From assembly GCA_013792135.1 (NCBI GenBank), contig VMSP01000099.1, positions 1-64,000 on the forward strand: DNA of 64,000 nucleotides. The letters run 5' to 3'. The stretch comes from Desulfocapsa sp. (GTDB lineage Bacteria; Desulfobacterota; Desulfobulbia; Desulfobulbales; Desulfocapsaceae). Positions 36,531-61,241 of this stretch are shown in pieces (the stretch's first letter is position 1; each line of letters opens with the position of its first letter). The notes under the pieces were generated by a model. The model was not told the origin of the DNA and ran no database searches. It saw nothing but the letters and a program-made list of their open reading frames with translations. Made by a program: the position numbers and the translations under genes.

Positions 36531-36573
36531 TTTTTCTCCTTGAAAAAATTGCAGGTCCGGGGCATGCACAAGG

Positions 36574-36615: not shown

Positions 36616-36680
36616 CCCTTATTTATCCACAGATGACACACAGACCTGCCCCTTGTCCACGGGAACAGCCGTTCTTCTTT

Positions 36681-36840
36681 CAGACAGGTCTTCTGACTTC
36701 CGGATCGTCCTCCCTGTTGCGCCTTCCCAACCTGAAAATCCGGTCAGTGGCTTGAATGCAACGGTCGTCCCCGGTCACAGCGGCGGGCCCGTCCCGGATT
36801 GTCACCGGGTTCCCTTTTAAGCTCTGTTATGAGCATCTGA
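36681..36840 (-). promoter_or_regulatory. Cobalamin (AdoCbl-type) riboswitch, copy 1
   Basis: On the minus strand the segment has the conserved cobalamin-riboswitch blocks in order: AAAAGGGAACCCGGTG, AATCCGGGACGGGCCCGCCG, GCCACTG, GGGAAGGCG and the B12 box AAGTCAGAAGACCTGTC. A promoter lies upstream: -35 TTGACT (36883-36878), a 17-bp spacer, and -10 TAAAGA (36860-36855). It controls the TonB receptor and BtuF-like gene. Confidence 0.96.
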
Positions 36841-36969
36841 AATTATTCATTTATTCTTTAATGAAAAAACAGGGACCAGTCAACATTTTTTTGGTTCTAA
36901 TTGTTTGCTGAGGGCCGATGCCAAAATTTTCCCTTCTTTTTTCCTGTTTCCGGCAACAGTGCTGATCAG

Positions 36970-37821: not shown

Positions 37822-37831
37822 TACTTATCCC

Positions 37832-41734: not shown

Positions 41735-41744
41735 CTAAACGTTA

Positions 41745-42515
41745 TCAAGCAGCTAAGCTCAACCTGGTTTTTTTGGCCACGGCCATACAATTTTGGTCTC
41801 GGCAGTTCATAATCACCGCATCCAAACCAGCCTCGATCAGTAAATGCAAAAGGCGGCAATGAGAGGCGGAGCGAGCCCCGCCATCCAGAAACTGGCAGGT
41901 ATTATTCAGAGCAACGATGGTGCGCAGACGATGGCCGGACAACTCCCCGACCAGTCTGATAGAATCGAGGATCAAATCAATATCCGGCAAACCGCCGCTT
42001 AAAGACCAGCTTACCGGATCAGGTCGACAGGACATGACCGGATCCAGATAGAGATGCTCCAAAGGGAAACCTGTCTCCTTGGCCACATCCAGCACATCCA
42101 TGGCCAGGTTCAAACGACCCTCCGCATCCACGGGGGTACATGCGCTACTCACCAGCAGAATCACCAGTCTGGCCCCGAAGAAAGAGGCGGTTTTCATGGC
42201 ACTGACCAGTTCAGTCCGATTGGCCGTGACGGCGTTAATGGTAGCAGTTCCCTTATGTATTTCCAGGGCGCGCTGTTGACTCAAGACATAATTGGAAAGA
42301 AAAAGAGGTGCCTCCACAGCCTGCTGAATGGTCTCCACCAGCCACGGAGTAAGGCAACCGAGTTTCCGGTTTTGGCCCAGATTGACATCAAGGGCCGTGG
42401 CTCCGGCCTCTATTTGACGCCGAGCCAGCAATATCACGGCTTGTTTATCCTTTTTTTCCAACGCTTGTAAAAAGGTCTGGTTCATAAGATGCATCTCTTG
42501 ACCGATAATTTCCAT
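41745..42515 (-). CDS. Pterin-binding (AcsE/MetH-like) methyltransferase-family protein
   Basis: This 256-residue TIM-barrel protein matches the methyltetrahydrofolate:corrinoid methyltransferase family. It has IIGQEMH near the N-terminus (usually GExIN), ARRQIEAGATALDVNLGQNR, KGTATINAVTANR and a late LYLDPVMSCRPD. The pterin-binding Asp and Asn of the DVNLG box are retained, but the usual DS after the next strand is replaced by LSNYV. It could bind a corrinoid or transfer a methyl group in corrinoid processing. Location between btuF-cbiZ and cobN is unusual for AcsE, which normally sits with acetyl-CoA synthase genes. Confidence 0.7.
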   Translation of the reverse strand: MEIIGQEMHLMNQTFLQALEKKDKQAVILLARRQIEAGATALDVNLGQNRKLGCLTPWLVETIQQAVEAPLFLSNYVLSQQRALEIHKGTATINAVTANRTELVSAMKTASFFGARLVILLVSSACTPVDAEGRLNLAMDVLDVAKETGFPLEHLYLDPVMSCRPDPVSWSLSGGLPDIDLILDSIRLVGELSGHRLRTIVALNNTCQFLDGGARSASHCRLLHLLIEAGLDAVIMNCRDQNCMAVAKKTRLSLAA

Positions 42516-42527
42516 GATCTTCTCCTG

Positions 42528-44567: not shown

Positions 44568-44908
44568 TTATTTCCCTCCGGGATATAGACCATGGAACCA
44601 TTTTCAAGCCGGTAAGCAGTACCCAAGCGCTGGCCTTTACCCTTGGCCTGCTCCTTGCTCACTTTCATGGCCTCGATTTTTTTACCGTCCTTGACGATAA
44701 TCTCCATCTCGCCCGTGGCCGACTGTTTGGTGATAGTCACCTGCGAATTTTCTTGCAGCAAATCTTCCATATGTAAGGAGCTGAACAGGGCCAGCAGCAG
44801 CCCAACAATCAAGACCGACCCCAGGTCAAAGAGGTTAGCCACGCCATTCATGGGGTCATTATCCGACAGATCGGTGCCCAAACTGAGTTTTCTGTTGAAA
44901 TATCTCAT
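44564..44908 (-). CDS. DUF2149 protein (ExbD-like partner of the CobN system)
   Basis: This 114-residue protein has one N-terminal transmembrane helix (LGSVLIVGLLLALFSSL) preceded by SDNDPMNGVANLFD, the recognisable DUF2149 signature. The C-terminus is periplasmic and charged. DUF2149, MotA/TolQ/ExbB and DUF2162 proteins recur next to CobN-like genes. The Asp residues before the helix resemble an ExbD-like proton site, but this is inference. It overlaps the ExbB-like gene by 4 bp. Confidence 0.8.
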   Translation of the reverse strand: MRYFNRKLSLGTDLSDNDPMNGVANLFDLGSVLIVGLLLALFSSLHMEDLLQENSQVTITKQSATGEMEIIVKDGKKIEAMKVSKEQAKGKGQRLGTAYRLENGSMVYIPEGNK

Positions 44909-45498
44909 TGTTTTCCGGCCAGAATTTCTGCTGCCAGCTCCATGTTTTTCACATCTTCCTCTACCCAGCGGCGCTGAACGGTAAAGAAAAAATAACTGAC
45001 CAGCCCCAGAGTCATCCCCACCACCGTAGTGGTGAAGGCAACTACCAGATTACTGGAAAGGCGGGTAAAATCCCCACTGCTCAGTGAGGCAAGGCCTGTA
45101 CCCATGGGAATCAGGGTGCCGATAAGACCAAGCCCCGGCCCAATGCGAATAGCCATCTTCAAGTGATCCAGGGATTTCCACAAACGATGTTCGGTCTCGC
45201 GCAGCAGGTTCAAAACTGCAAGCTCGTGATGTTTGTGAGAATCGTGATCCGTCAATTCGACAAGCTGCTGACAAAAACGACGTACCGGAACTGGAAAATC
45301 AGAAAAGGACTGAGTTTTCAGGGAGCGTATCGCATCAAGAGAGCGTGGTAGACGGCTCCGTGACAGATACATACCGGTAAAACTCCCGCTATAGATAACC
45401 AGCCGGACGGTAAGCAGTGATAAGAGAATCGCCATCGGCAGGTGTAGGGATGAGGCAACAAGATAGATAAAGGATTCCAGCAGCGTGATAATATTCAT
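44905..45498 (-). CDS. MotA/TolQ/ExbB-type proton channel protein
   Basis: This 197-residue protein has three predicted helices (about 17-35, 108-135 and 145-170) and the family core LIPMGTGLASLSSGDFTRLSSNLVVAFTTTVVGMTLGL. It is expected to form a pentameric inner-membrane motor that uses the proton gradient. Pairing with DUF2149 and exported CobN suggests it energises the periplasmic chelatase or its receptor. It overlaps its upstream and downstream genes by 4 bp each. Confidence 0.88.
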   Translation of the reverse strand: MNIITLLESFIYLVASSLHLPMAILLSLLTVRLVIYSGSFTGMYLSRSRLPRSLDAIRSLKTQSFSDFPVPVRRFCQQLVELTDHDSHKHHELAVLNLLRETEHRLWKSLDHLKMAIRIGPGLGLIGTLIPMGTGLASLSSGDFTRLSSNLVVAFTTTVVGMTLGLVSYFFFTVQRRWVEEDVKNMELAAEILAGKQ

Positions 45499-46211
45499 GA
45501 TGCCCTCCTCAGGGTTTTCAGAAAACCCAACGAAAAAACCAGGCCCAGGCCAGCCAGAAACAGGGGAAGACGATGATCTACGACGATAACGGTGGACTTG
45601 CTGACCCGATAGATCCGCTCAAGGTCACCAAACTGCGGAACAACGGCAATGGTGACGAGAAAATAGAGGGCGGCCAGCACCATGACCCGGCCCAGTCCCT
45701 GTTCGGCGCTGCTTTTTGCAAACAGGACAAAGACCAGTGCGCTGACCAGACTCACAGCAATAAAACCGGCGAAAAGCCAGGCAAAGATCCAGAGATTTTC
45801 CGGAAAAAGATTGTGGAGAAAAGCACCGCTGCAAAGGATCACCGAAAAACAAACCGGACAAGGCAGGGCCAGCAGGAGCCAGCCGTGACTCCTGCCTCCA
45901 CGATCGCTGCTCTTTTTAAGCAGGGTCACACCCCAGAGAAGCAGGAGCACTGCGAGTAGAAAATGGACTGTCATGCCGCTCTTTGCAACAAGCATGACCG
46001 TTTCCAGATGGGCTCCGATATCTATCCGGCTGACAACAAACCAGGCCAGCACAAACATCAAGCCATAACTGAAGCAAAAACCGCAAAGAGCTGAAAACCG
46101 TTTGCTCAACCTCGACTCCAGCCTGAGCAGGTAAGAAAGACCTGCCCCGCTCTTCACGGCAAAGATACCCACTGAAAAAATGAGCCCGATGACAAGTGAT
46201 TTCAGCTCCAT
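45495..46211 (-). CDS. Predicted transporter, DUF2162-like
   Basis: This 238-residue multi-helix membrane protein is taken from ATG 46211 (GGGGG upstream); the longer frame to 46343 crosses the riboswitch terminator. It has about seven hydrophobic segments, with a Cys-containing motif WLLLALPCPVCFSVILCSGAFL (about 113-134). The pattern and company (ExbB-like, DUF2149, CobN) match DUF2162 predicted transporters. The Cys cluster may bind metal. It is the first gene of the operon controlled by the second cobalamin riboswitch. Confidence 0.7.
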   Translation of the reverse strand: MELKSLVIGLIFSVGIFAVKSGAGLSYLLRLESRLSKRFSALCGFCFSYGLMFVLAWFVVSRIDIGAHLETVMLVAKSGMTVHFLLAVLLLLWGVTLLKKSSDRGGRSHGWLLLALPCPVCFSVILCSGAFLHNLFPENLWIFAWLFAGFIAVSLVSALVFVLFAKSSAEQGLGRVMVLAALYFLVTIAVVPQFGDLERIYRVSKSTVIVVDHRLPLFLAGLGLVFSLGFLKTLRRAS

Positions 46212-46321
46212 GACCAACCCCCATCTTTGAAGCTGCCACAAAAATCCTCTCTTAAAATCCGGATAACCACTTTTCTCCTCTATAAAAAAGGTTGCGGTTC
46301 CGGGGCATGCCAGCAAAAAAG

Positions 46322-46364
46322 CAAAAAAAAATCCCCGGACCAATATAATATTGATCCGGGGATT
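46322..46364 (-). terminator. Riboswitch-controlled intrinsic terminator (copy 2)
   Basis: The same long stem as copy 1 (AATCCCCGG with CCGGGGATT, about 46330-46364) is followed on the minus strand by an eight-base T-run (46329-46322). It lies between the second cobalamin aptamer and the DUF2162-like gene. Confidence 0.88.
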
Positions 46365-46428
46365 GCCTTGTTTTATCCACAGATGACACAGGTCTGCCCC
46401 TTGTCCACGGAGACATCCTTTCTAATTT

Positions 46429-46589
46429 CAGACAGGTCTTCTGACTTCCGGATCGTCCTCCCTGTTGCGCCTTCCCAACCTGAAAAACACGGTCAGTGGC
46501 TTGAATGCAACGGTCGTCCCCGGTCACAGCGGCGGGCCCGTCCCGGATTGTCACCGGGTTCCCTTTTAAGCTCTGTTATGAGCATCTGA
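46429..46589 (-). promoter_or_regulatory. Cobalamin riboswitch, copy 2
   Basis: Nearly identical to copy 1, including the B12 box, the GGGAAGGCG block and flanking bases. The promoter is -35 TTGACG (46632-46627), a 17-bp spacer, and -10 TAAACG (46609-46604). It controls the operon from the DUF2162-like gene towards cobN and cbiK. Confidence 0.96.
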
Positions 46590-46767
46590 AATTTTCTCAT
46601 CAACGTTTACTGAAAAAAACAGCACCCGTCAACATTAAACATGTTCTTTTTCTGTTGATAACAAAACCGCAAAGAAGTGTCCCTGATTTTCTTGAGAACA
46701 GGACTAAAAGCAAGCCCTCTATCTGCCTTGGGCGATCAGGAGCACAATGGAAAACAGGAATAATGTA

Positions 46768-46898
46768 TTGACAGCCGAACTGGGGTGCGGTAAGGAAAAG
46801 AAAATCATGATGTCATGAAGGCATCAACCACCAACACAACATCATTTATTCAGGCCACGAAGGCTTGGGCACACTGGCCTGAGGTTCGTGGTTTTTTT
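46768..46898 (+). promoter_or_regulatory. Leader A: promoter and terminator before DUF3842-cooT
   Basis: TTGACA at 46768-46773, a 17-bp spacer and TAAGGA at 46791-46796 make a promoter. About 90 bases later CCACGAA (46855-46861) pairs with TTCGTGG (46885-46891), ahead of seven T. CAGGCC (46851-46856) can instead pair with GGCCTG (46876-46881), which would break the terminator. This is an attenuator layout. The 5' arm GCCACGAAGGCTT is shared with leaders B and C. Confidence 0.65.
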
Positions 46899-46954
46899 GT
46901 CTGGACGCCAGACAATCGCCATCAGCAGATTCACCACCCAGCAAGAGTAAAGCA

Positions 46955-47380
46955 TTGTTGAAAAAGATATGTATCATTGACGGCCAGGGCGGCGGCATAG
47001 GCGCCACCCTGATCAAATATATCAAAGAGGCCTATGGTGAATCGGTGGAGCTGATCGGCCTTGGCACCAACGCCATCGCCACCGCCCAGATGCTCAAATC
47101 CGGCGCCAATAAAGGGGCATCGGGTGAGAACGCCATCTGCCGCACCGTGTACGAGGTGGACTGCGTCATTGGCCCCATCACCATCACATGGGCTAATTCT
47201 ATGCTGGGCGAGGTGACACCAAGGATGGCCGAAGCGATAACCTCATGCCCAGCCCTGAAAATCTTGTTGCCACTCTCACAGGAACGAATCGAACTGGTAG
47301 GGATCATCAAGGAACCCCTGCCGCACCTGGTGCAGGCAGTAATCGCCGGAAAGCTGAAAGAGGTATTGAACCATGTGTGA
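46955..47380 (+). CDS. DUF3842 family protein
   Basis: This 141-residue protein starts at TTG (46955 or 46958), with an AAGAG site upstream. Its start LKKICIIDGQGGGIGATLIKYI is a Rossmann-like Gly-rich loop typical of DUF3842. Later features include LGTNAIATAQMLKSGANKGASGENAI and VIGPITITWANSMLGEVTP. The biochemical role is unknown. It overlaps cooT by 8 bp, a pairing seen in anaerobes, suggesting joint work in metal or CODH maturation. Confidence 0.82.
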   Translation: MLKKICIIDGQGGGIGATLIKYIKEAYGESVELIGLGTNAIATAQMLKSGANKGASGENAICRTVYEVDCVIGPITITWANSMLGEVTPRMAEAITSCPALKILLPLSQERIELVGIIKEPLPHLVQAVIAGKLKEVLNHV

Positions 47381-47561
47381 AGCAAGCGCATATCTGAGCA
47401 AAGACGGAGAAGAGCAACTACTTATGGAATCGGTGGATATCATCGAACCCCAGGGCGAAAACACCTTCCGCATTGTCGGCATCTTCGGAGATCAGAAGAT
47501 CATCCATGCCCGTATCAAGCTGATGAATCTGGTGGATCACCGCATTATCTTCGAAGAATAG
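47373..47561 (+). CDS. cooT: CooT family nickel-binding protein
   Basis: This 62-residue protein has the family profile: MCEASAYLSKDGEEQLLMESVD at the N-terminus and LMNLVDHRIIFEE at the end. CooT binds Ni2+ through its N-terminal Cys2 as a dimer and assists CODH maturation in Rhodospirillum rubrum. Cys2 is present. Its place in a nickel-type gene cluster supports this assignment. Confidence 0.88.
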   Translation: MCEASAYLSKDGEEQLLMESVDIIEPQGENTFRIVGIFGDQKIIHARIKLMNLVDHRIIFEE

Positions 47562-47681: not shown

Positions 47682-47796
47682 ATTGTGACAGTCTGGACTT
47701 TTTGCGGGATTATCATCCTTTATACAAAATTAGTCGCTCCTCTTGAAGATTACTGAAGTAATCGACAGAGCCAAAAGTATAAGAAATTGTCACAAA

Positions 47797-47906
47797 ATAA
47801 GTAGAATGCATCAGGAGTTTAACACCTCGATGCGTATAAGTAGTGAAGCCACGAAGGCTTTGGTTCTCCCCCAAAAAGGAACTAAAGACTGTGTGGCTTT
47901 TTTTTT
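47797..47906 (+). promoter_or_regulatory. Leader B: hairpin and terminator before the His-rich gene
   Basis: A hairpin with GCATC/GATGC arms (about 47807-47832) is followed by the shared element GCCACGAAGGCTT (47848-47860) and a terminator. AAGCCAC (47846-47852) pairs with GTGGCTT (47893-47899), with nine T at 47898-47906. The gene starts 139 bp further on. No convincing promoter was found. The rest of the 483-bp gap holds the palindromic repeat. Confidence 0.55.
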
Positions 47907-48044: not shown

Positions 48045-48332
48045 ATGGAACAAAAAACTACCATCGACAAGCTGCGGATACTACTGCCCCACTGGGTTGA
48101 ACACAATTTTCATCATGGAGAAGATTTCTGGAAATGGGCGGAGCAAGTAAGGCAGGATGGACACCAGGAACTGGCAGCACTGCTCGATCAGGCGATCAGC
48201 AGCATGAAAGTCACTGATGGAATTCTGGAAAAGGCCCTGAACATGATCGGTGGAGCTGATAGCAATCACCACCATCATCACCACGATCATGCCCACGATC
48301 ACGATCATCAGCACTGCCATAAACATGATTGA
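48045..48332 (+). CDS. His-rich, probably nickel-binding small protein
   Basis: This 95-residue protein has AGGAGGA before its ATG. A helical domain (1-72) is followed by a C-terminal tail with about fifteen His among Asp residues (six consecutive His, then DHAHDHDHQHCHKHD). Similar tails occur in HypB, SlyD and CooJ and buffer or deliver nickel. The N-terminal half also has HNFHHGEDFWKWAE. Storage or chaperone function is inferred from composition and neighbours. Confidence 0.75.
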   Translation: MEQKTTIDKLRILLPHWVEHNFHHGEDFWKWAEQVRQDGHQELAALLDQAISSMKVTDGILEKALNMIGGADSNHHHHHHDHAHDHDHQHCHKHD

Positions 48333-49395: not shown

Positions 49396-49610
49396 TTGAC
49401 TTGCTCTCTCAAACAATGTAAAAAAGCATTCATCATTAAATCTGATTACAGTCTTCATTTATTCTGATCACAGAAGTGATCATCCCAGACTGACCAAGAT
49501 ACTCTGGATCCGGTTCCTAAAACCGATCCTCTTATAGCAGCCAAGATATTCAAGCCACGAAGGCTTTTGTTTCCGGAATACGGAACCAAAGCCTTCGTGG
49601 CTTTTTTTTT
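49396..49610 (+). promoter_or_regulatory. Leader C: promoter and terminator before the FmdE-like/CODH-like genes
   Basis: TTGACT (49396-49401), a 17-bp spacer and TAAAAA (49419-49424) make a promoter after hldD. The leader has a GGATC...GATCC hairpin (about 49506-49529). It ends in a strong terminator: AAGCCACGAAGGCTTT (from 49552) pairs with AAAGCCTTCGTGGCTT (to 49603), followed by T-run to 49610. The 5' arm is the same 13-mer as in leaders A and B. The next gene starts at 49655. Having its own promoter argues against simple termination of hldD. Confidence 0.65.
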
Positions 49611-49654: not shown

Positions 49655-50242
49655 ATGCTCGTACCTCTTGATCTGGCCGCGCTGGCCTGGAAACAAAGCC
49701 ATCTGAGCCCCGAACTGGCACTTGGCTGGCGGCTGGGTCGTCATGCCCACGACTGTTTCGACGGACTTGACCGGGTGCGGATCGCCGCCACCGGCCATGC
49801 CCATACCCTGGCCGCTCTGGAACGGCTGGCCCGCTTTCCGGAGCCGGGCATGGTGGTCAAACCGGCAGGGTTACGGCCCTGGGACATGCTTTTTTATCAT
49901 GAACCCACCGCCACCGCCCTCAAGGTCGTCTGCATCAGCAGGCGCACCACCCTGTCCCCAACTGCCATAGAACTGGAGGACAAGCTGAACGGAGATGATC
50001 CAACCGTGGCCGACCGCTACCAGGAAGAACTTGATGGACTTGTCAGCAATATCGTCAATGGCAATCTGACCGGACTCTGTTTCGTCCAGGAGATCCGCTG
50101 CCGGGTGCTTGATGTAGAGAAGAGCAAACTCCCGGCAAGTTGCCCCTGGTGTCAGAGTCGATCCTTCACCCGGCTGATCGAGGTGGACGACCACATCTGC
50201 TGCCCGGCCTGCTCCGGACTGGAACCGGACTGGCTTGTTTGA
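49655..50242 (+). CDS. FmdE-like protein with C-terminal zinc ribbon
   Basis: The protein has 195 residues. The N-terminal half follows the FmdE pattern, with QSHLSPELALGWRLGRHAHDC where family members usually have HGHxCPELALGYR, so the usual metal-binding His and Cys are partly lost. The C-terminus is a zinc ribbon: CPWCQSRSF and CCPACSG. FmdE-family proteins bind metals and molybdopterin-related partners in anaerobes. Here it leads the transcript with the CODH-like gene. Function is unclear, but a metal-related role fits the neighbours. Confidence 0.55.
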   Translation: MLVPLDLAALAWKQSHLSPELALGWRLGRHAHDCFDGLDRVRIAATGHAHTLAALERLARFPEPGMVVKPAGLRPWDMLFYHEPTATALKVVCISRRTTLSPTAIELEDKLNGDDPTVADRYQEELDGLVSNIVNGNLTGLCFVQEIRCRVLDVEKSKLPASCPWCQSRSFTRLIEVDDHICCPACSGLEPDWLV

Positions 50243-50295: not shown

Positions 50296-52098
50296 ATGAC
50301 ACTTGCCAGATATCAACACGAAAGCATCCCGGCGCTGACAACCGCTCGCGACCGGATCAATGCCCGAGAAATGTCACGATGCACCTTCGGCTCAGGCGGC
50401 ACCTGTTGCCGGGTCTGTAATATGGGCCCCTGCCAGATCATTGATGGGGTCGAGACCATGATAGGGGTCTGCGGCGCCACCTCCGACACCGTGGCCGCGC
50501 GCAATTTCGCCAGGATTGTCGGCGCAGGTGTTGCCCTTCAGGTGGAGGAGGCCAGAGAAATGGTCAGGATCTTCATGGCCACCGCCAAGGGAGAGACACC
50601 CTACGCCCTGGCCGATGAAAATAAGCTCCGGGAACTGGCCCGGCTAATTGAGATCGACCCCGACATCAGCGACCTCAAAACGCTGGCCCTGGAAACGGGC
50701 CGATCGCTTCTCGCCGCATTCGGCAATCAGGATGAGACCCTGGCGCTGATGAAAATCGCCCCGAAAAACCGCCGCCGTATCTGGAAAGATCTGGGCGTCA
50801 CCCCGCGCGGATTTGACCGCGAGGTGGTGGAACTGATGCACCGGACGCACATGGGTGTTGACCAGGAATTTGTCAACATCGTCCGCCAGACCAGTCGCTG
50901 TGCCCTGACGGACGGCTGGGGCGTATCCCGCGTGATCAGCTGGCTGACGGATATCCTGTTTCCGACCCTGCCGGCACCAACCGTGAAGCCGGAAGGGCTG
51001 AGACAGGACATGATCAACATCCTGATCTACAGCCAAGGCCCGCTGGCTATGGAAACACTGAAAGAAGCGGCAATAGACCCTGAAGTCATCAACCTGTGTC
51101 AACGCTCATCGGCCACAGGCATCAACCTGGTGAACGGCTCCATCGGCGATCAGGAGACCGATCTCCTCACCGGTTGCGTGGAAATCATGGTGGTCAGCGG
51201 TTCGTGCATCATGCCTTCTATCTCCAGAATCATCCGATCCCTGCACACCCGACTTGTCACCAGCAGCAATTCCATGAAGATGACTGGGGCAGAACATTTT
51301 GAGCTGACAGGACCGGCTGCCCGCAGCAATGCCATAACCATCTTGAAGATGGCTGTCACCGCTTTTCGTGGCCGTGAAAAAGTGCTCAATCCTGCTGAAG
51401 AGAATAAAACCGAACAAAGGTCACAACCACAATTCGGAATCCACAGCCTTGACCCAGCCCAACTTGCCGGCCGGATCAGCAAAGGTGATATCCGTGGCAT
51501 CGCCCTGATCATGGGCTGCGACAACTACCATCAGCAACAGGACAGTCATGCCGCCATCGCCGAGATTCTGCTGCGAAACGATATTTTCATCATCAGCAAT
51601 GGCTGCGCCGCCAACTCTCTGGCCAGAAGTGAGGAGATGCAAGGAAACAGGGTCTGGGAAATGGCCGGTTCAAAGTTGCAGGCCGCCTGTCAGGAGATGA
51701 ACCTGCCGCCGATACTGCCCATGGGAACCTGCATTAACAGCAGCCAACTGTTGCAGATTGCCGACCTGCTCATCCAGCAGGGGATGGGAAAGGACCTTGC
51801 CGATCTGCCGCTGGTGGCAGCCGCTCCGGCCTGGATCAGCGAAAAAATTGTAACGGCTGGTCAATGCCTTGTTGCAAGCGGGATAGATGTCTTTTTCAGC
51901 GCGTTGCCGGTCACAGGCTCCCGCAAATTGGCCGACTATCTACAACACGGGTGCCGCACTGAATACGAGGCCTGCTGGCAGATTGACAAGGAACCCAACC
52001 AGATGGCGCAAAAAATAATCGCCCGGATAGACAGCAAACGACAGGAGTTGAATCAGGCAAACAGTCTTTTTGTCCTGACAGCAACAACATCGGCATAA
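50296..52098 (+). CDS. CODH (CooS)-family protein lacking C-cluster ligands
   Basis: This 600-residue protein is clearly related to Ni-CODH catalytic subunits. The N-terminal cluster motif RCTFGSGGTCCRVCNMGPC and GVCGAT are intact, giving ligands for the B and D clusters. In the active-site half, Cys333-type (SGSCIMPS), Cys446-type (MGCDNY), Cys476-type (SNGCAANSLA) and Cys526-type (PMGTCINSS) are retained. The HGHEP-type loop is replaced by YSQGP (about 51025-51040). The segment normally holding GICCTGNE is missing: INLVNGSIGDQET follows directly (51121). Thus both ligands of the unique iron are absent. CO oxidation is unlikely. ATG 50296 was chosen; earlier starts lie inside the FmdE-like gene. 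Confidence 0.85.
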   Translation: MTLARYQHESIPALTTARDRINAREMSRCTFGSGGTCCRVCNMGPCQIIDGVETMIGVCGATSDTVAARNFARIVGAGVALQVEEAREMVRIFMATAKGETPYALADENKLRELARLIEIDPDISDLKTLALETGRSLLAAFGNQDETLALMKIAPKNRRRIWKDLGVTPRGFDREVVELMHRTHMGVDQEFVNIVRQTSRCALTDGWGVSRVISWLTDILFPTLPAPTVKPEGLRQDMINILIYSQGPLAMETLKEAAIDPEVINLCQRSSATGINLVNGSIGDQETDLLTGCVEIMVVSGSCIMPSISRIIRSLHTRLVTSSNSMKMTGAEHFELTGPAARSNAITILKMAVTAFRGREKVLNPAEENKTEQRSQPQFGIHSLDPAQLAGRISKGDIRGIALIMGCDNYHQQQDSHAAIAEILLRNDIFIISNGCAANSLARSEEMQGNRVWEMAGSKLQAACQEMNLPPILPMGTCINSSQLLQIADLLIQQGMGKDLADLPLVAAAPAWISEKIVTAGQCLVASGIDVFFSALPVTGSRKLADYLQHGCRTEYEACWQIDKEPNQMAQKIIARIDSKRQELNQANSLFVLTATTSA

Positions 52099-52442: not shown

Positions 52443-52865
52443 ATGGATTGGCTGAAATCAGTTATCGAATACGGCGTCATCGGCCTGCTGGGTGCGCTGA
52501 GCGTAATCGCGGTGGCCATTGCCATCGAGCGCTTCCGCTTCTTCAGGGGCCTCTGCCTTGAAGAATTTAACAACCGGCGACTTTTGGAGCTGGCGCTCAC
52601 CCGCCGGTTGCACCTCATCGCCACCATCGGCAGTAATGCCCCCTATGTCGGGCTGCTTGGCACCGTGCTCGGCATCATGCTGATTTTTTATAATATGGGG
52701 CAGGAGGGAATGGTGGATTCAGCCCGGATCATGACCGGGCTTGCCTTGTCGCTGAAAGCCACCGCCGCCGGCCTCCTGGTGGCCATCCCGGCGGTAGTGC
52801 TCTACAACCTGCTTCTGCGACGGGCCAAGGAATTGCTGCTCACCTGGGAGGCGCATCATGAATGA
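52443..52865 (+). CDS. exbB: ExbB/TolQ-type proton channel (short form)
   Basis: This 140-residue protein has helices at about 10-30, 65-85 and 100-125 and the ExbB core APYVGLLGTVLGIMLIFYNMG and LALSLKATAAGLLVAIPAVV. AAGGAG lies eight bases upstream. With ExbD and TonB it forms the motor that powers the outer-membrane receptor encoded just downstream. It overlaps exbD by 8 bp. Confidence 0.92.
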   Translation: MDWLKSVIEYGVIGLLGALSVIAVAIAIERFRFFRGLCLEEFNNRRLLELALTRRLHLIATIGSNAPYVGLLGTVLGIMLIFYNMGQEGMVDSARIMTGLALSLKATAAGLLVAIPAVVLYNLLLRRAKELLLTWEAHHE

Positions 52866-53235
52866 GAAAGGCTTTGACGGCATCAACGTCATCCCTTTTA
52901 TCGACATCATGCTGGTGCTCCTCACTATCGTGCTGACCACAGCGACCTTCATCGCCAACGGCACGATCCCGGTCAACCTGCCCAAGGCTGAAAGCAGTGC
53001 CACTGCAGGCCGAGGCGTGACCGTGGAAATCAACCAGGCTGGAAAGATCTATTTTCGGGGAACTGAATATACCATAGCATCCCTTCGCGCTGCCCTGTCT
53101 GCTGAAGACCGGCAAACACCATTCCTTATCCGGGCCGACCGGGCGGTGGCGTTGCAATCATTTGTCGATGTCATGGGATTGGTCAGGGAGCTTGGCTTTT
53201 CGAAGATGAGCCTGCAAACGGAGGCAACAAAATGA
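52858..53235 (+). CDS. exbD: ExbD biopolymer transport protein
   Basis: This 125-residue protein has a cytoplasmic INVIPFIDIMLVLLTIVLTT start with the conserved proton-carrying Asp in its single transmembrane helix. A periplasmic ExbD domain follows (GRGVTVEINQAGKIYFRGTE; FLIRADRAVALQSFVDVMGL). It overlaps tonB by 4 bp. Confidence 0.93.
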   Translation: MNEKGFDGINVIPFIDIMLVLLTIVLTTATFIANGTIPVNLPKAESSATAGRGVTVEINQAGKIYFRGTEYTIASLRAALSAEDRQTPFLIRADRAVALQSFVDVMGLVRELGFSKMSLQTEATK

Positions 53236-53933
53236 GACGTGATGGACGGGCGCTCACCGAATCGTTTGTGCTGCATGGTTTGCTGACAGGGGCCATAATC
53301 ATCATGGCCGGGGCGCTTACCCCGCCACCACAGACAATACGTCTCGATTTTTCCATGTTGCAGCCGACTGCCTCCCCGAGGCCGGATGAAACCCCGCAGG
53401 CACAGGCAGCGGTGGCAACGCCAACACCTCCAGCGCCACAACCCGAGCCCGTGGCGCTCCCACAAAAACTGGCACCGGTCGCGGCCAAGATCAGGCACTC
53501 TCCACAGCCGATCACACCCGCACCACAACAATCTCAGGAGCAAAACAGTCCGGAAGTTGCCGAAAACCCCGCGCCCGCCCCTGTCGCGGCAAAGCCTGCC
53601 GGCACGGCCTCAAGCACATCTGTGACAGAAGCCCCGGCCGTTCCCGCCGATGAAGAATACAGACGCACCAATTTTGGAGCCATCCGCGACTCAATCCTTG
53701 CCAATCTGCGCTATCCCATGCTTGCCCGCCGCCGGGGCTGGAGCGGTCAGGTGGAGATCGCCTTCAAGATTACCCCGGATGGCAGTGTCAGTGAATTACG
53801 AATCGTGGCCAGCAGCGGCTTCCCTGTACTTGATGACCAGGCGCTGGCCGCAATCCGCCACTCGGCCCCTTTTACACCGCCGCCACGCATAGCCGCAATC
53901 CTGGTCATGCCGGTCAACTTCCAGCTCAACTAA
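53232..53933 (+). CDS. tonB: TonB energy-transducing protein
   Basis: The protein has 233 residues. One N-terminal transmembrane segment (about 10-30) is followed by a long Pro/Ala/Gln-rich periplasmic linker (45-140). The C-terminal TonB domain has LRYPMLARRRGWSGQVEIAFKI, SELRIVASSGFPVLDDQALAA and FTPPPRIAAILVMPVNFQL. It carries proton-motive energy to the receptor encoded downstream. Confidence 0.93.
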   Translation: MRRDGRALTESFVLHGLLTGAIIIMAGALTPPPQTIRLDFSMLQPTASPRPDETPQAQAAVATPTPPAPQPEPVALPQKLAPVAAKIRHSPQPITPAPQQSQEQNSPEVAENPAPAPVAAKPAGTASSTSVTEAPAVPADEEYRRTNFGAIRDSILANLRYPMLARRRGWSGQVEIAFKITPDGSVSELRIVASSGFPVLDDQALAAIRHSAPFTPPPRIAAILVMPVNFQLN

Positions 53934-54158
53934 GGAGTATGCAGAAAGGGAATTGAGAACAAACAACATTTCCCAAATATGCGCTTCCTTGCAAAAGATT
54001 CGATGAAAAATATTTAAACAAACTCACACACCGGGTATTCGGCAAAGGAGGAAAAAGCAGGCAAGAAAAAGTTCATAACGACCTGAACTCAGATCAAGAA
54101 AAGAAAGATTCATTGTCGCTAAATCAACAAACATCAAAATTTTGAAGTGAGAGAAGGA

Positions 54159-56189
54159 ATGAAATTTTTAACCAGAAAAAAAAGTCTGCTCCTGGCAGCA
54201 CTCACCGCCACCATAACCATGCCTCTGGCTGTTCAGGCGGCGGAACCGGTTGTTCTCGACAATATCACGGTCAAGGGTGAGGCCATAACCTCAGCCACCG
54301 AACCTATCACCGTCAATACCGTAACTTCTGAGGATATTGACGGACTCAAACTGCTGCGTCCGGAACAATTGCTGGAACTGGTGCCAGGCGTCGAGATCCA
54401 TAACTACAGCCAGGGTGGCGTAGCCAATGAATTTGAAATGCGCGGTTATAACAACTGCGGTCATGGCGGCGATGCCGCCATCGCTATCGATGGTATCCCT
54501 TTAAATGAAGGGCAGTCCCATGCTGATGGCTATGCAGACATGAATGTTATTATTCCACTGGAAATTGACCATGTCGATGTTTTCAAAGGCCCCTCATCCC
54601 CGCTATTCGGCAATTTCGCCAGGGCAGGCGCCATCTCCTTTAACACAAAAAAAGATGGAGAATACAGCACATTACAGACATCAATCGGTTCCTATGAAAC
54701 CTTTGACACCCAGTATGTCTTTGGTCGTTCCCTAACCGATACTTTCCGTAACAATACCGCCCTGCAGTTTGCGACAACCGACGGCTACCAGGATCACTCA
54801 TCATGGCAACGCGGCAACTTCAGCACTCGCCTTGGCTGGCAGACCACACAAAACCTCGACCTCGCTCTCTCTTTTCGGATGAATAAGTCCATCTGGGATG
54901 CCCCTGGCTATATTCCTGAGTACCAGTTTAAAAACGTCGACGCCTCCTTTCATCAGGCGGTCAATGCCGAGGATGATGGCGGCAACAAGCTCTTTACGAC
55001 CCAGCGACTCGATGCCGGCTACCGTCTGACTACCGACAGCAAACTCCTTGCCTGGACCTATGCAACTGAACAGGATTTCACCCGATTTGCCAAGTTCGGC
55101 TATGATGCGGGAGGTCAGACGGAGAAACATCATGATCGTTTGGTCTATGGTGCCGGGACAAGTTATAACTATGAAAGTAAATTCGCCGGTAAGGATCTGA
55201 ACGGCGTCGCCGGTATCGAATATTTTCATGAAGATACCGACACCGAGATCTACAACACGACAAACCGGGTCCGCACATCGCAGAGCGAGGATCGTAACTT
55301 CATTATCGATACCGTGTCTCTCTTCGGCCAGATTGATTATGCCCTGCATCCGCTGTTCAAACCCTGGCTTGGTTTTCGTTATGACTCATTTGGTGGGGAC
55401 TATACCAACAAAGACCCTGGCTCCACGCCATTTTCCGAAAATATGAATGACTATTCGCATCTCAGCCCTAAAATCGGTTTTCACAGCGAGCTGCACAAGA
55501 CCCTTGATTTTCATACAAGCTTTACCCAGGGCTTTGCCATCCCGGCAGATGCCGATAAGTATAACAGCGCCATTGGCAATGAGGCCCAAACAATCAATCA
55601 GTATGAAGCCGGTCTCAAATATACGCCCTCCAAGCTTTTTACCGGTGACTTGGTGGTCTTCCGGATTGACAACCTGAACGAAATCCAGGAATCCTTTCCC
55701 GGTTCAGGCATCTATCTTGAACTTGGCGAGACCCGACGTGACGGCCTTGAGCTTTCTGCCGTGCTGAAACCCTGGTTTGCCGGTCTTGAGCTGTTCGGTG
55801 ATCTGACCGTTACGGATACGGAAATCATGAAGAATGTTGACCCGACAATAGTGGGCAAGCATGTAACCGGAGTGCCGGATTATACCTCCAATCTGGGTGT
55901 GCGTTACCGGGCCGAATCCGGAATCAATACCCAGATTAAATGGCGGCATACGGATCGTTTCTATATCGACAGCGCCAACCTGGAATCGTATGACGGCTAC
56001 AACGTAACTGATTTTGCCATAAGCTATAATGACAAGACCCAGAATGGCACAAAATGGCGGATAGGGGCTGATATCGACAATCTTTTTGACGAACACTACA
56101 GCCAGGCGATATGGAACGGCTACGGCACCAACAACTATGCGGTGAGCGCGCCCAGAACCTTCTGGCTGCGACTCGGCATTGAGATATAG
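54159..56189 (+). CDS. TonB-dependent receptor (probable nickel/metallophore)
   Basis: The protein has 676 residues from ATG 54159 (GTG 54147 is an alternative). It has a signal peptide (1-28), a TonB box-like LDNITVKGEA and a plug with His-rich loop NNCGHGGDAAIAIDGIPL and NEGQSHADGYADMN. A beta-barrel ends in TFWLRLGIEI. Genes for ExbB, ExbD and TonB precede it and a nickel/peptide ABC importer follows, 7 bp downstream. This order suggests a dedicated import route for nickel or a nickel-chelate. The metal is inferred from context. Confidence 0.88.
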   Translation: MKFLTRKKSLLLAALTATITMPLAVQAAEPVVLDNITVKGEAITSATEPITVNTVTSEDIDGLKLLRPEQLLELVPGVEIHNYSQGGVANEFEMRGYNNCGHGGDAAIAIDGIPLNEGQSHADGYADMNVIIPLEIDHVDVFKGPSSPLFGNFARAGAISFNTKKDGEYSTLQTSIGSYETFDTQYVFGRSLTDTFRNNTALQFATTDGYQDHSSWQRGNFSTRLGWQTTQNLDLALSFRMNKSIWDAPGYIPEYQFKNVDASFHQAVNAEDDGGNKLFTTQRLDAGYRLTTDSKLLAWTYATEQDFTRFAKFGYDAGGQTEKHHDRLVYGAGTSYNYESKFAGKDLNGVAGIEYFHEDTDTEIYNTTNRVRTSQSEDRNFIIDTVSLFGQIDYALHPLFKPWLGFRYDSFGGDYTNKDPGSTPFSENMNDYSHLSPKIGFHSELHKTLDFHTSFTQGFAIPADADKYNSAIGNEAQTINQYEAGLKYTPSKLFTGDLVVFRIDNLNEIQESFPGSGIYLELGETRRDGLELSAVLKPWFAGLELFGDLTVTDTEIMKNVDPTIVGKHVTGVPDYTSNLGVRYRAESGINTQIKWRHTDRFYIDSANLESYDGYNVTDFAISYNDKTQNGTKWRIGADIDNLFDEHYSQAIWNGYGTNNYAVSAPRTFWLRLGIEI

Positions 56190-56196
56190 GTGACTC

Positions 56197-57798
56197 ATGA
56201 ACGTACGCCATTTTCTGATCGGCGTGGCGCTTCCCTTGCTGCTGGTTATTGCCTCAGGCTGTGACCGGCAGCAAAAGGTCTCAGCCGATACGCCCAAGAC
56301 CTTGACCCTGATTTTAGGGGAAGAAAATACCGAAGGGTTTGATCCAACACTTGGCTGGGGCAGTTACGGTAATCCGCTGTTCCAAAGTACCTTGCTCAAA
56401 CGCGATGCCGATCTGAAGATCGTTTCGGATCTGGCCACAAAATGGGAGCTGGGCGATGGACAGCTGGCCTGGACCGTTAAAATTCGTCCAGAAGTCGTTT
56501 TTTCCGACGGCTCACCCCTGACGGCCAGAGATGTCGCCTATACATTCAATACGGCGGCCAAGGCCGGTGGGGTTGTCGATCTCTCAAATCTTCAACTGGC
56601 GGAGGCTATTGATGACAGCACGGTGATCCTGCGCCTCAAGCATCCGGATATCACCTTTATCCAGCACCTCATTACCCTGGGCATCGTTCCGGAAAAGCTC
56701 CATGGCCCCGGTTACGGGCGCAAACCAATCGGCTCGGGGCCGTACAAACTTGTGCGCTGGGATGAAGGGCAGCAGATGATCGTCGAGGCCAACGACCGTT
56801 ACTATGGAATCAAGCCCTCCATCAAGCGACTGGTCTTTCTCTTTTCAACTGAAAATGCGGCCATTGCGGCGGCCATGGCAGGAAAAGTCGATGTCCTGGG
56901 CGTTTCTTCCAACCTTGCCGGGCAAAAAATCCCCGGCATGACACTGCATGTGGTGAAAAGCGTCGACAACCGGGGACTGATGTTTCCGATGGTCCCGGAC
57001 ACCGGTCGGAAGACACCCCGCGGCCTGGCTATCGGCAATAATGTGACCTCGGATATCGCCATCCGTAAGGCCGTCAACTACGCCATCAACCGGCAGGCAC
57101 TGGTCGACGGTGTGCTGGACGGTCATGGACGACCGGCCTTTGGGGCGGTTGATGATCTCCCCTGGGATAATCCGGAGATCCGTTTTAAAGACAATGACCC
57201 GGAAAAGGCCAAGGCCATCCTGGAAGAGGCCGGCTGGCGCGATAGCGATGGCGATGGCGTTCGGGAAAAAGATGGGAAAAAGGCCGAGTTCGAAATCCTC
57301 TACAACACTAAAGACAGCTTGCGACAGGGCCTGGCCCTGGCCGTCTCCGACATGCTCAGGCCGGTCGGCATCAAGGCCGTTCCCCGTGGTGAGAACTGGG
57401 ACCGGATCAAGGACGAGCTGACCCACGCCTTTGTGATTGTCTACGGCTTCGGTGGACATAGCCCTTTAGAGATGTACAAACTATATCACAGCAACGGCCC
57501 CGAGCCGATGTACTGGAACGCCGGATTCTATGTCAATCCGGTGGTGGATAATTATCTGGATCAGGCCCTGCGGGCACCCTCATTCGACGAGGCTATTCCG
57601 CTGTGGAAAAAAGCGCAATGGGATGGAAAGACGGGTATTTCTACACCCGGCGATGCTTCCTGGGCATGGCTGGTCAACCTTGATCATACCTACTTTATCA
57701 ATCAATGCCTGGATGTGGGCAAATCCCAAATGGAGCCTCATGGGCATGGCTGGCCGATCACGGCCAATATCGACCAGTGGCAATGGACCTGTAAATAG
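56197..57798 (+). CDS. Family 5 solute-binding lipoprotein (NikA-like)
   Basis: This 533-residue protein has a lipoprotein signal (lipobox VIASGC). The SBP_bac_5 domain has VFSDGSPLTARDVAYTFN, KLHGPGYGRKPIGSGPYKLV and IRKAVNYAINRQALVDGVL. Family members bind peptides, nickel or nickel chelates. The C-terminus retains the NAGFYVNPVVDNYLDQAL region. In this operon a nickel or metallophore ligand is more likely than peptides. Confidence 0.88.
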   Translation: MNVRHFLIGVALPLLLVIASGCDRQQKVSADTPKTLTLILGEENTEGFDPTLGWGSYGNPLFQSTLLKRDADLKIVSDLATKWELGDGQLAWTVKIRPEVVFSDGSPLTARDVAYTFNTAAKAGGVVDLSNLQLAEAIDDSTVILRLKHPDITFIQHLITLGIVPEKLHGPGYGRKPIGSGPYKLVRWDEGQQMIVEANDRYYGIKPSIKRLVFLFSTENAAIAAAMAGKVDVLGVSSNLAGQKIPGMTLHVVKSVDNRGLMFPMVPDTGRKTPRGLAIGNNVTSDIAIRKAVNYAINRQALVDGVLDGHGRPAFGAVDDLPWDNPEIRFKDNDPEKAKAILEEAGWRDSDGDGVREKDGKKAEFEILYNTKDSLRQGLALAVSDMLRPVGIKAVPRGENWDRIKDELTHAFVIVYGFGGHSPLEMYKLYHSNGPEPMYWNAGFYVNPVVDNYLDQALRAPSFDEAIPLWKKAQWDGKTGISTPGDASWAWLVNLDHTYFINQCLDVGKSQMEPHGHGWPITANIDQWQWTCK

Positions 57799-57819: not shown

Positions 57820-57861
57820 TCACCGACTAATACCCCTCAAGAGTATCTGTCGGTGATTTTT
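57820..57861 (+). terminator. Intrinsic terminator between the binding protein and permease genes
   Basis: TCACCGAC (57820-57827) pairs with GTCGGTGA (57849-57856), with an inner ATAC/GTAT pair. A T-run of five follows (57857-57861). It probably reduces transcription of the permease and ATPase genes relative to the binding protein, giving the usual excess of binding protein. Confidence 0.75.
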
Positions 57862-57870
57862 AGAAATATT

Positions 57871-58866
57871 ATGCACTTAATGATCACTCAGTTTTTATTA
57901 GTAAAGACGTTTCGGCTCATTCTGCTTATCGCCGCAGTAGCAACTCTGTCGTTCGTCCTGGTCAGCAGTTCACCCGTCGATCCGGTTGATGCCTATGTCG
58001 GGGCCGCCATGCTCAGGATCTCCCCGGATCAGCGGGAGGTCATCGCCAAACGTTGGGGGCTGGACAGACCCCCTGTTGAACGTTTCGGCAGATGGGCCGG
58101 GCAAATGGCAACAGGCAACTTTGGCGTCTCGACCATTTTCAACGAACCGGTTCTTTCAGTTATCGGGAAACGTTTTATCACGTCGTTCTGGTTGATGGCA
58201 CTTGCCTGGAGCCTTTCCGGGGCCCTGGGGTTCGGGCTGGGACTCATTGCCGGGGCAAGGGAAGATACGCTTCTGGACCGCAGTATCAGGCTGTATGCCT
58301 ATACCATGGCCTCCACTCCAACCTTCTGGGTCGGGATGATTTTGCTCATGATCTTCTCCGTCTCCCTGGGATGGACCCCGGTCTGCTGCGCCTGGCCTCC
58401 GGGATTGAGCGCCGAACAGGCAACACTCTGGCAACGACTGCATCATCTGCTGCTGCCGGCCATCACCTTGTCTCTTATCGGCATCGCCCAGATCACACTC
58501 CACACCCGTGAAAAAACTATTGAGGCCCTGCGGAGCGATTACTCCATCTTTGCTCGGGCCCAGGGGGAATCAACCATCGGCATCGTTTTCCGGCGCGCCC
58601 TGCGCAATGTGGCCTTGCCCGCCGTCACCCTCCAGTTCGCCTCTCTGGGGGAACTGTTCGGCGGCGCCGTGCTGGCTGAGCAGGTCTTCGCCTATCCGGG
58701 CCTGGGGCGAACCACTGTCGAGGCAGGTATCCGGGGTGACATCCCCCTTCTGCTGGGGATTGTCCTCTTCAGCACGATCTTTGTCTTTACCGGCAACTTC
58801 ATGGCCGATCTCATCTATCATCTGGTGGATCCACGACTACGAAAAGCAACAGGGGCCATATCATGA
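57871..58866 (+). CDS. ABC permease, NikB/DppB type
   Basis: The protein has about 331 residues from ATG 57871; GTG 57853 lies within the terminator stem. It has six predicted helices and the permease motif EALRSDYSIFARAQGESTIGIVFRRALRN (EAA loop). An N-terminal helix (FRLILLIAAVATLSFVLVSS) is followed by a long periplasmic loop, as in DppB. It overlaps the second permease by 4 bp. It forms the importer channel with that protein. Confidence 0.88.
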   Translation: MHLMITQFLLVKTFRLILLIAAVATLSFVLVSSSPVDPVDAYVGAAMLRISPDQREVIAKRWGLDRPPVERFGRWAGQMATGNFGVSTIFNEPVLSVIGKRFITSFWLMALAWSLSGALGFGLGLIAGAREDTLLDRSIRLYAYTMASTPTFWVGMILLMIFSVSLGWTPVCCAWPPGLSAEQATLWQRLHHLLLPAITLSLIGIAQITLHTREKTIEALRSDYSIFARAQGESTIGIVFRRALRNVALPAVTLQFASLGELFGGAVLAEQVFAYPGLGRTTVEAGIRGDIPLLLGIVLFSTIFVFTGNFMADLIYHLVDPRLRKATGAIS

Positions 58867-59699
58867 CGATCAATCCTTTAGCCCTGGATCGCCGGACACG
58901 CACCATGATGGTTATCCTCGGTTGTCTCATTCTCTTCTCCGCGATTTTTCTCGGCGCATGGCTGTATGGCGAACAGGGTCAGGTGACCAATCTGGCCCTG
59001 CGAAAGCTCCCTCCCGGCTGGGATCAGCCATTTGGGACAGACTGGCTGGGCAGGGACATGTTCGCCAGGACCATCAAGGGACTCCGTATCAGCCTGGAGA
59101 TCGGTCTGGCCGCCGCTACCTGTTCGGCAGTCATTGCCCTGCTGCTCGGTTTGGCGGCCGCCACCATGGGTAGGATCGTTGACGTTGCCGTTACCTGGTT
59201 GTGCGATGTTGGAATGGCCACTCCGCATCTGGTTTTACTGATCCTGATATCCTTTGCCTGCGGTGGCGGGGCCAAAGGGGTCATCATCGCAGTGGCCGCA
59301 TCGCATTGGCCTGCGCTCACCAGGGTTATCCGGGCCGAAGTCATGCAGCTCCGTACATCTGATTACATCAAACTCTCCCACCGGCTTGGTAAAAGTCCTG
59401 CCTGGATTGCGCGGCACCATTTCCTGCCCCATGTGGTTCCGCAGTTCCTGGTGGGGTTGCTGCTCCTTTTCCCGCATGCCATCCTGCATGCGGCCGGATT
59501 GACATTCCTGGGTTTCGGCATGTCACCGCACACCCCGGAAATCGGGACACTACTGGCAGAATCAATGCGTTATCTCACAACGGGAATGTGGTGGCTGGCC
59601 GTAGCTCCGGGGCTGGCCCTTGTTCTCTCAGCCATGACCTTTGATGTCCTCGGCAATAACGTCAGGGCACTGCTGGACCCAAAAACCTTACGCGAATAG
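58863..59699 (+). CDS. ABC permease, NikC/DppC type
   Basis: This 278-residue membrane protein has FGTDWLGRDMFARTIKGLRI after the first helix, a hallmark of DppC/NikC. The EAA loop reads EVMQLRTSDYIKLSHRLGKS, and the family C-terminal FLGFGMSPHTPEIGTLLAES is present. It pairs with the NikB-type subunit. Confidence 0.9.
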   Translation: MTINPLALDRRTRTMMVILGCLILFSAIFLGAWLYGEQGQVTNLALRKLPPGWDQPFGTDWLGRDMFARTIKGLRISLEIGLAAATCSAVIALLLGLAAATMGRIVDVAVTWLCDVGMATPHLVLLILISFACGGGAKGVIIAVAASHWPALTRVIRAEVMQLRTSDYIKLSHRLGKSPAWIARHHFLPHVVPQFLVGLLLLFPHAILHAAGLTFLGFGMSPHTPEIGTLLAESMRYLTTGMWWLAVAPGLALVLSAMTFDVLGNNVRALLDPKTLRE

Positions 59700-59710: not shown

Positions 59711-60634
59711 ATGCTTGACATACAAGATCTTTCCATACGGTTTACCCGTTACACCTTTGGTCTTAAGAAAAAGGAGACCTGCGTCGTCCAGGGTCTTGAC
59801 CTGTCGATTGCACCGGGCCAGGTGATGGCTGTGATCGGCCAATCAGGGGCAGGGAAAAGCCTGCTTGCCCACGCCTTACTGGGTATCCTGCCGCGCAATG
59901 CCCAGGTTGAAGGGAGAGTATTCTTCAAAGGGAAACCTTTGACCCCTGAACGGCTCTCAACCTTAAGGGGGCGGGAGATTGCACTGATCCCCCAATCGAT
60001 AACCGCCCTGAACCCGCTTCTGCGAGTAGGGGTACAGGTGGCCAGGGCTGCGCGGCTGAGCGGGATCAGCAAGAAGGATGCGCCGACCACTGTCAACCGT
60101 GCTTTTAGCCGCTACCTTCTCCAGAAAGAGGTTGCAACCTGGTTTCCCTTTCAGCTTTCAGGAGGCATGGCCCGCAGGGTGCTCACCGCCACTGCCACCG
60201 TAGGCATGGCTGACCTGATCCTGGCGGATGAACCTACCAGTGGTCTTGATCCGGCTACGGCCAAGGAAGCCCTTGGTCATCTGCGCGAACTGGCTGACAC
60301 CGGCAAAGCCGTGCTGCTGATCACCCACGATATTGAAGCAGCCCTTAAGATCGCCGATATGGTGACGGTATTCTGTGCCGGTACCACCGTGGAAGTAGCC
60401 AGTGCCGATGATTTTAAAGGCCTTGGCCAACTCCGCCATCCCTACACCAGAGCTCTCTGGAATGCCCTGCCGGCCAACAGTTTTATTGGAACCATGAAAC
60501 CCATCGAAAGGAGCCCCAATACTACCGGCTGTCCTTTCCAGACCTGCTGTAATGAACAGGATGCCGTCTGTGGTCACAGCACTCCCGAACTTAAACACTC
60601 AAGCGCAGGACGGGTGAGGTGTCATCATGCTTGA
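59711..60634 (+). CDS. ABC ATPase, NikD/DppD type
   Basis: The protein has 307 residues. Walker A GQSGAGKSLLAHALLG (about 43-58), signature LSGGMARRVL, Walker B LILADEPTSGLD and the switch His in ITHDIE are all present. A C-terminal Cys-rich tail (CPFQTCCNEQDAVC) is typical of oligopeptide/nickel-type ATPases and may bind a cluster or metal. It overlaps the next ATPase by 8 bp. Confidence 0.9.
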   Translation: MLDIQDLSIRFTRYTFGLKKKETCVVQGLDLSIAPGQVMAVIGQSGAGKSLLAHALLGILPRNAQVEGRVFFKGKPLTPERLSTLRGREIALIPQSITALNPLLRVGVQVARAARLSGISKKDAPTTVNRAFSRYLLQKEVATWFPFQLSGGMARRVLTATATVGMADLILADEPTSGLDPATAKEALGHLRELADTGKAVLLITHDIEAALKIADMVTVFCAGTTVEVASADDFKGLGQLRHPYTRALWNALPANSFIGTMKPIERSPNTTGCPFQTCCNEQDAVCGHSTPELKHSSAGRVRCHHA

Positions 60635-61241
60635 AGCCAAAACCCTCGCGTACCGATATGGAAAACAATGTTCCTGGCTCTTTGACGATCTTGATCTGCA
60701 GATAGCACCGGGGGAGATTGTCGGGATGTCCGGTCCAAGCGGCCGGGGGAAATCTACCTTGGCAAAGGTACTGGCCGGCTATCTGCCCCCTGGTAGAGGG
60801 AGCGTGATGATAGGTGGTCGACCCCTACAAGGTTCCGGCCACTGCCCGGTTCAGCTCCTGTTTCAACACCCGGAGCTGGCCGTCAACCCACGATGGAAAG
60901 TGGGTAAAATCCTGCAGGAGGGGGAGGAGCCCACGGCAGACCTCTGCAAGGATCTCGGTCTTGAACCGGCATGGTTTGATCGTTATCCCCACGAACTCTC
61001 CGGTGGGGAACTGCAACGGATCTGCCTGGCCCGAGCGCTCAGTTCAGGAACCCGATATCTGCTCTGTGATGAGATGACCTCAATGCTCGACGCCCTGACC
61101 CAGGCCCATATCTGGCAGATTATCCTGGACATTGCCCGAAGCCGGAGGCTGGGGCTCTTGGTCATCAGTCATGATACGACACTAATCACCAGACTCTGTA
61201 GCCGCAACATCAGCTACTTTGGGGATACAGTAAATCATTAG
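60627..61241 (+). CDS. ABC ATPase, NikE/DppF type (short)
   Basis: This 204-residue protein has Walker A GPSGRGKSTLAKV, signature LSGGELQRICLARALS, Walker B LLCDEMTSMLDALTQAHIWQ and the switch region VISHDTTL. It lacks the C-terminal oligopeptide extension, as expected for NikE-like subunits. It is the last gene of the import operon. Confidence 0.9.
   Translation: MLEAKTLAYRYGKQCSWLFDDLDLQIAPGEIVGMSGPSGRGKSTLAKVLAGYLPPGRGSVMIGGRPLQGSGHCPVQLLFQHPELAVNPRWKVGKILQEGEEPTADLCKDLGLEPAWFDRYPHELSGGELQRICLARALSSGTRYLLCDEMTSMLDALTQAHIWQIILDIARSRRLGLLVISHDTTLITRLCSRNISYFGDTVNH

Follow-up and report, generated by a model that had tools for sequence, protein, structure and literature searches.

In the C-cluster of Ni,Fe-carbon monoxide dehydrogenases (CODHs) His261 and Cys295 bind a pendant or unique iron, and Cys333, Cys446, Cys476 and Cys526 bind the cubane (CooS-II numbering). 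Relatives with altered ligands are already known and include CooS-V (PMC9311411) as well as groups A-4, A-6, D-1, G-1 and clade B (PMC6344411). Among the classified groups in Table 2 of Inoue et al. (PMC6344411), its 21 unclassified sequences aside, there is no CooS-type group without the histidine. In two recent surveys of CODHs any sequence whose C-cluster ligands deviate was set aside (PMC13240472, PMC11338639), and such relatives have thereby been overlooked.

Here we describe a CODH-like protein encoded in a 64,000-nucleotide stretch of Desulfocapsa sp. DNA (contig VMSP01000099.1, hereafter the window). It resembles CooS-type CODHs and has lost both unique-iron ligands, a combination found in no CooS-type group listed by Inoue et al. 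(PMC6344411). With the canonical CooS-type Ni,Fe-CODHs of the Desulfobulbales, such as the paralogue on contig C96 of the same genome, it shares the fold, the B- and D-cluster cysteines, the four cubane cysteines and Lys563, but it lacks His261, Cys294, Cys295, His93 and His96 and belongs to another operon. CooS-V of Carboxydothermus (clade D, group D-1; PMC9311411) is a natural, conserved and CO-inactive protein that likewise has a CODH scaffold with altered C-cluster ligands, however its sole change is Glu in place of Cys295, with the histidine still there, whereas here the histidine and the whole cysteine segment are gone; the two are 23% identical in structural alignment. Cdh-type groups A-4 and A-6 (Inoue et al., PMC6344411) also lack the histidine and the first cysteine and keep the four other cysteines, but they are archaeal-type CdhA proteins with substitutions (D/P, N/S) and not a CooS-type protein with a deletion. 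Clade B CODHs (PMC6344411, PMC13056359) resemble our locus in having a non-canonical C-cluster and ABC-transporter neighbours, although most clade B groups alter the second cysteine (to Asp or Glu), keep the histidine and first cysteine, and neighbour NitT/TauT transporters where we find TonB and Nik genes. Hybrid cluster proteins (HCPs, classes I-III) have the superfamily and cysteine positions in common with the protein, but their His and Glu ligands are absent from it and the fold match is much weaker (Z 25 against 50).

Identity and predicted fold of the CODH-like protein

The 600-residue product (Table 1) matches the prismane/CODH family PF03063 at E=3e-99, with 333 bits against a gathering score of 27, and scores 369.5 bits with the CODH equivalog TIGR01702, below its cut-off of 478. 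Its AlphaFold model has a mean pLDDT of 78 and is weak over residues 1-44, so that the B/D region lies outside the structural test. CODHs are the best structural matches of the model (Z about 50), the CooS-type CODHs giving Z 44-51 and, for most of them, an rmsd of 2.2-2.6 over 530-565 residues, with weaker matches to CooS-V (Z 45) and class III HCP (Z 25). Judged by its sequence the protein is classed inside the prismane/CODH superfamily and yet outside the CO dehydrogenases. Canonical CODHs are also encoded in the window genome and in the L036 genome, the window genome's own paralogue being 46% identical to the CODH-like protein.

Table 1 Features in and around the CODH-like operon, in window coordinates
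Feature	Position	Strand	Basis or remark
Cobalt/cobalamin island	33657-46604	-	
Further leader-RNA copies	46811-46902, 47745-47904	+	before DUF3842-CooT and His-rich protein
DUF3842	46955..47380	+	profile match; downstream of leader RNA
CooT (CODH nickel chaperone family)	47373..47561	+	overlaps end of DUF3842
Small protein with His-rich tail	48045..48332	+	behind leader RNA; homologue in L131
Leader RNA, NGAA-loop hairpin and terminator-like hairpin	49463..49608	+	covariance model, folding; upstream of CODH-like operon
Unclassified 195-aa protein, C-terminal zinc-ribbon Cys, weakly FmdE-like	49655..50242	+	upstream of CODH-like ORF
CODH-derived protein without unique-iron ligands, 600 aa	50296..52098	+	ORF open at exactly these coordinates; profiles, alignment, structure match
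Codons covering B- and D-cluster Cys C29-C59	50380..50472	+	alignment; conserved 4/4
Codons Q82-E85, in place of acid-base H93 and H96 of CooS-II	50539..50550	+	alignment; 4/4
Codon Q247, in place of unique-iron ligand H261	51034..51036	+	alignment; 4/4 members
Junction (residues 278/279) of 17-residue deletion taking out C294/C295	51127..51132	+	alignment
Region with four kept C-cluster Cys C304, C408, C437, C479	51205..51732	+	alignment
ExbB	52443..52865	+	profile match
ExbD-like	52858..53235	+	named by position and sequence
TonB	53232..53933	+	
TonB-dependent outer-membrane receptor	54147..56189	+	profile match
NikA/Opp-type substrate-binding protein	56197..57798	+	profile match
NikB/NikC-type permeases, two ORFs	57853..59699	+	second named by position and sequence
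Two ABC ATPases, NikDE-type	59711..61241	+	first named by position and sequence

Loss of the unique-iron site

The CODH-like proteins were aligned with CooS-II, with three CODHs of solved structure and with the canonical paralogue from the window genome; in the CooS-II sequence 17/17 residue positions inspected fit the expected numbering. The initial annotation had proposed an alignment to CooS-II and had claimed that an HGHEP-type loop had become YSQGP with loss of the ligand histidine, that a cysteine-bearing segment was deleted and that the four other active-site cysteines remained together with those of the B and D clusters. Our alignment bears this out. Gln247 stands in the place of the unique-iron ligand His261, the ligand loss being evident also against the three solved CODHs and the own paralogue, and a 17-residue segment with C294 and C295, which reads AGVCCTGNEILMRRGIP in that paralogue, is absent after residue 278. 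The cubane cysteines are kept in 4/4 members of the subfamily as C304, C408, C437 and C479 (C333, C446, C476 and C526 of CooS-II), as are the six B/D-cluster cysteines (C29, C37, C38, C41, C46, C59) and Lys563 (K517). Since only 59 of 115 CODH-invariant positions overall are kept in all four members, the retention of all ten cluster cysteines is selective.

To the losses first noted we add that of the acid-base histidines, H93 being replaced by Q82 and H96 by E85 in every member, which breaks the acid-base pair His93 and Lys563 that marks CooS-type CODHs. Cys294, which is needed for Ni insertion in CODH, is deleted in 4/4 members. As to whether His or Cys ligands might be supplied elsewhere, position 261 is Gln throughout, no subfamily-specific conserved His was found in the alignment of the four members, and C553 is a subfamily-specific conserved Cys.

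A clade of four members

A search of 258 genomes of the class, 395 of the phylum and a collection of 84,980 genomes found only four members, all within one order. The three relatives, L035/L115 (59% identity), L116/L131 (54%) and L036/L117 (52%), come from families of that order other than that of the window genome, and all other homologues, including the nearest canonical CODHs, reach at most 46% identity over their full length. The same 17-residue deletion, Q247, Q82 and E85 are common to all four; being identical in four independent members, these changes did not arise by chance. Placing the protein among the CODHs, as had been suggested initially, gives a separate monophyletic clade of the four members (support 100/100) on a long branch, with a long-branch warning, next to the canonical Desulfobulbales CODHs. 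The dN/dS of the genes is about 0.25 (0.24-0.29), with dS near saturation. The CODH-like gene is thus neither a singleton, nor decaying, nor an error.

Nickel and metal-uptake genes

All four members lie among genes for metal import, which comprise TonB/ExbBD together with NikABCDE, NikR or nicotianamine synthase. NikABCDE-type transporters are found at the window and L131 loci, a NikR gene adjoins the L036 member, with NikR present in all four member genomes, and the L035 locus carries nicotianamine synthase, NikK-like and NikL-like genes. Palindromes resembling the deltaproteobacterial NikR box lie upstream of the operon at the L035 and L131 loci and probably also at L036, two of them scoring at least 12/14 where shuffles give an expectation of 0.0; no NikR box was found upstream of the window operon, which has a leader RNA there instead. 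The nickel link of the operon is strong, because metal-import neighbours occur at all four loci and because the leader RNA is common to CooT and other nickel genes.

Directly upstream of the CODH-like gene, at 4/4 loci, lies the gene for a zinc-ribbon protein of 195-200 residues carrying an MLVP-LSPELAIGW motif. This gene is present in 15/258 class genomes (15 further copies besides that of the window), mostly inside TonB/ExbBD, TonB-receptor, NikABCDE, NikKL or NAS islands, the neighbours in which were named largely by reading of their sequences. Comparison with Pfam found no family, the match to FmdE is weak (hhalign probability 1.5%, E 0.034) and a literature search for FmdE with nickel or TonB returned nothing relevant; the AlphaFold model (pLDDT 50) was too poor for a structure search.

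Tandem pairs of nicotianamine synthase genes occur in zinc-ribbon/TonB islands (L035 6865-7743; L199 ~4042-5741; G178:C153) and suggest that bacteria of the Desulfobulbales produce nicotianamine-like nickel chelators. No nicotianamine synthase was found in the window genome, which would therefore depend on a chelator of another kind or from a foreign source. In L131 the zinc-ribbon and CODH-like genes share an operon whose first gene, at 10962-11894 (minus strand), gives a weak AAA-lid match, looks by eye like that of a Mg-chelatase ATPase and has a NikR-box-like site just upstream. The window also holds a cobalt/cobalamin island with two cobalamin riboswitches, a TonB receptor, CbiK, a 1300-aa CobN, a pterin-binding domain protein and a Peripla_BP_2-CbiZ fusion, together with DUF2149, ExbB-like and DUF2162 genes.

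A leader RNA shared with nickel genes

The leader RNA upstream of the operon contains a 13-mer, GCCACGAAGGCTT, that is conserved in its terminator-like hairpin and confined to leader copies in the 4.2 Mb genome. A covariance model finds the RNA in 10/258 class genomes from 3 genera, and in related genomes (copies L167-L169, L171-L176, L238-L241) it precedes DUF3842-CooT, ExbB/TonB, TonB receptors, the zinc-ribbon gene, porin/NikK-like genes and a NikM-like gene. In its first hairpin the C-NGAA-G loop is invariant and 5/6 pairs covary, as counted on tetraloop copies only with the hairpins cut out by hand. It is followed by a very stable terminator-like hairpin (z -8.1), the 5' arm of which can refold as a similar ACGAA-loop hairpin. 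This folding suggests that the leader may act by antitermination, but in copies like that before the CODH-like operon a short terminator could be made by the 3' arm as well. An Rfam search gave no match and we regard the RNA as a candidate new element absent from Rfam. CooT could be the regulator of this regulon, as its own gene belongs to it, and a new nickel-responsive RNA regulator may come to light through this leader.

Proposed function and alternative explanations

The best explanation, to which we would give an even chance, is a CO-inactive Fe-S redox protein serving nickel or metallophore acquisition. Its ancestor would have been a canonical Desulfobulbales CODH which, in diverging, lost the unique-iron site and the acid-base histidines and kept the electron wire of the homodimer (B and D clusters) and the four cubane cysteines, and CO dehydrogenase activity would not be expected of it. 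The C301S variant of DvCODH, which corresponds to loss of Cys294, is free of Ni, does not become active when given Ni and has about 30% of its unique iron inside the cubane (PMC6168284). By analogy with that variant (PMC6168284), and since His261, Cys294 and Cys295 are all gone, an all-iron cubane is most likely: a four-Cys cluster, probably [4Fe-4S] and possibly [3Fe-4S] or [Ni-3Fe-4S], beside a pocket that would be more polar and probably larger (Q82, E85, Q247, K517). The same analogy favours the plain [4Fe-4S] cluster and the other redox reaction among the options offered by the initial annotation, and disfavours a Ni-loaded cubane.

As the B and D cysteines are fully conserved electron transfer should still matter, and the metal-uptake context points to a role in nickel acquisition. 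Together with its zinc-ribbon partner the protein may act in the cytoplasm as an accessory to the uptake of nickel (metallophores) by the TonB/ABC system, its most likely job, and our best guess, being to donate electrons with which the imported metal complex, or its ligand, is reduced. No single gene at the four loci points to reduction as the reaction, and no ferredoxin or other electron donor was recognised beside any of the four members. Reduction does not normally release Ni(II) complexes, unlike those of Fe(III) or Co(III). In a fuller and tentative form of the proposal, possible at best, the CODH scaffold would have turned into a dedicated redox enzyme of metallophore nickel uptake that with its zinc-ribbon partner frees or processes a nicotianamine-like Ni complex and is switched, in one genus, by an undescribed nickel-regulon leader RNA. 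If the role is true, the use of nickel metallophores would include a redox step, something for which we know of no precedent. The protein ties the CODH family to nickel acquisition and, with the unique-iron site gone and the rest of the electron wire kept, provides a natural test of the role of the unique iron.

A nickel sensor, buffer or chaperone, in which a [3Fe-4S] core would bind Ni reversibly through the kept Cys526-type ligand, seems to us unlikely. It would suit the uptake genes around all four members, the retention of all four [Ni-3Fe-4S] cubane cysteines and the nearby CooT and His-rich protein behind the same leader RNA, but DvCODH no longer takes in Ni once it is deprived of just its Cys294 counterpart (PMC6168284), and the present protein lacks Cys295 as well as Cys294. 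The B/D electron-transfer clusters are fully conserved though storage has no need of them, and NikR is already there in all four genomes. The nickel role first proposed for the gene thus retains its link to nickel (uptake neighbours at all four loci, NikR beside one, a leader RNA shared with CooT), while sensing or storage is less favoured since a CODH without Cys294 fails to take up Ni.

We consider it improbable that the protein is an HCP- or CooS-V-like hybrid-cluster enzyme reducing hydroxylamine, NO or similar compounds under stress. The superfamily is the same, ligand-deficient CooS-V holds an Fe/S/O cluster and slowly reduces hydroxylamine (PMC9311411), and the H265V variant of R. rubrum CODH shows an increased turnover of hydroxylamine, as cited in PMC9311411; CooS-V however keeps the His and has Glu at 295 and HCPs use His and Glu ligands (PMC10502027), whereas all four members have Gln in place of the His and lack the entire 295 segment, in a gene context of metal uptake and not of nitrogen stress. 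A low probability also attaches to a part in acquiring cobalt instead of nickel, as an electron carrier for, or a partner of, some unknown enzyme, for instance in reducing inert Co(III) complexes. Such a reduction is chemically sensible for Co(III) and the cobalamin/CobN/CbiK/CbiZ island with its two cobalamin riboswitches stands beside the operon in the window, but no such island was seen beside the other three members, and the association with NikR, NikKL and CooT speaks for nickel. A decaying CODH paralogue or an assembly or sequencing artefact is hardly credible and is ruled out in practice by conservation across four genomes: two catalytic ligands and the acid-base His are lost and the branch is long, but the identical deletion recurs in four independent genomes with frames intact, under a dN/dS of about 0.25, with ten cluster Cys kept and the neighbour gene conserved.
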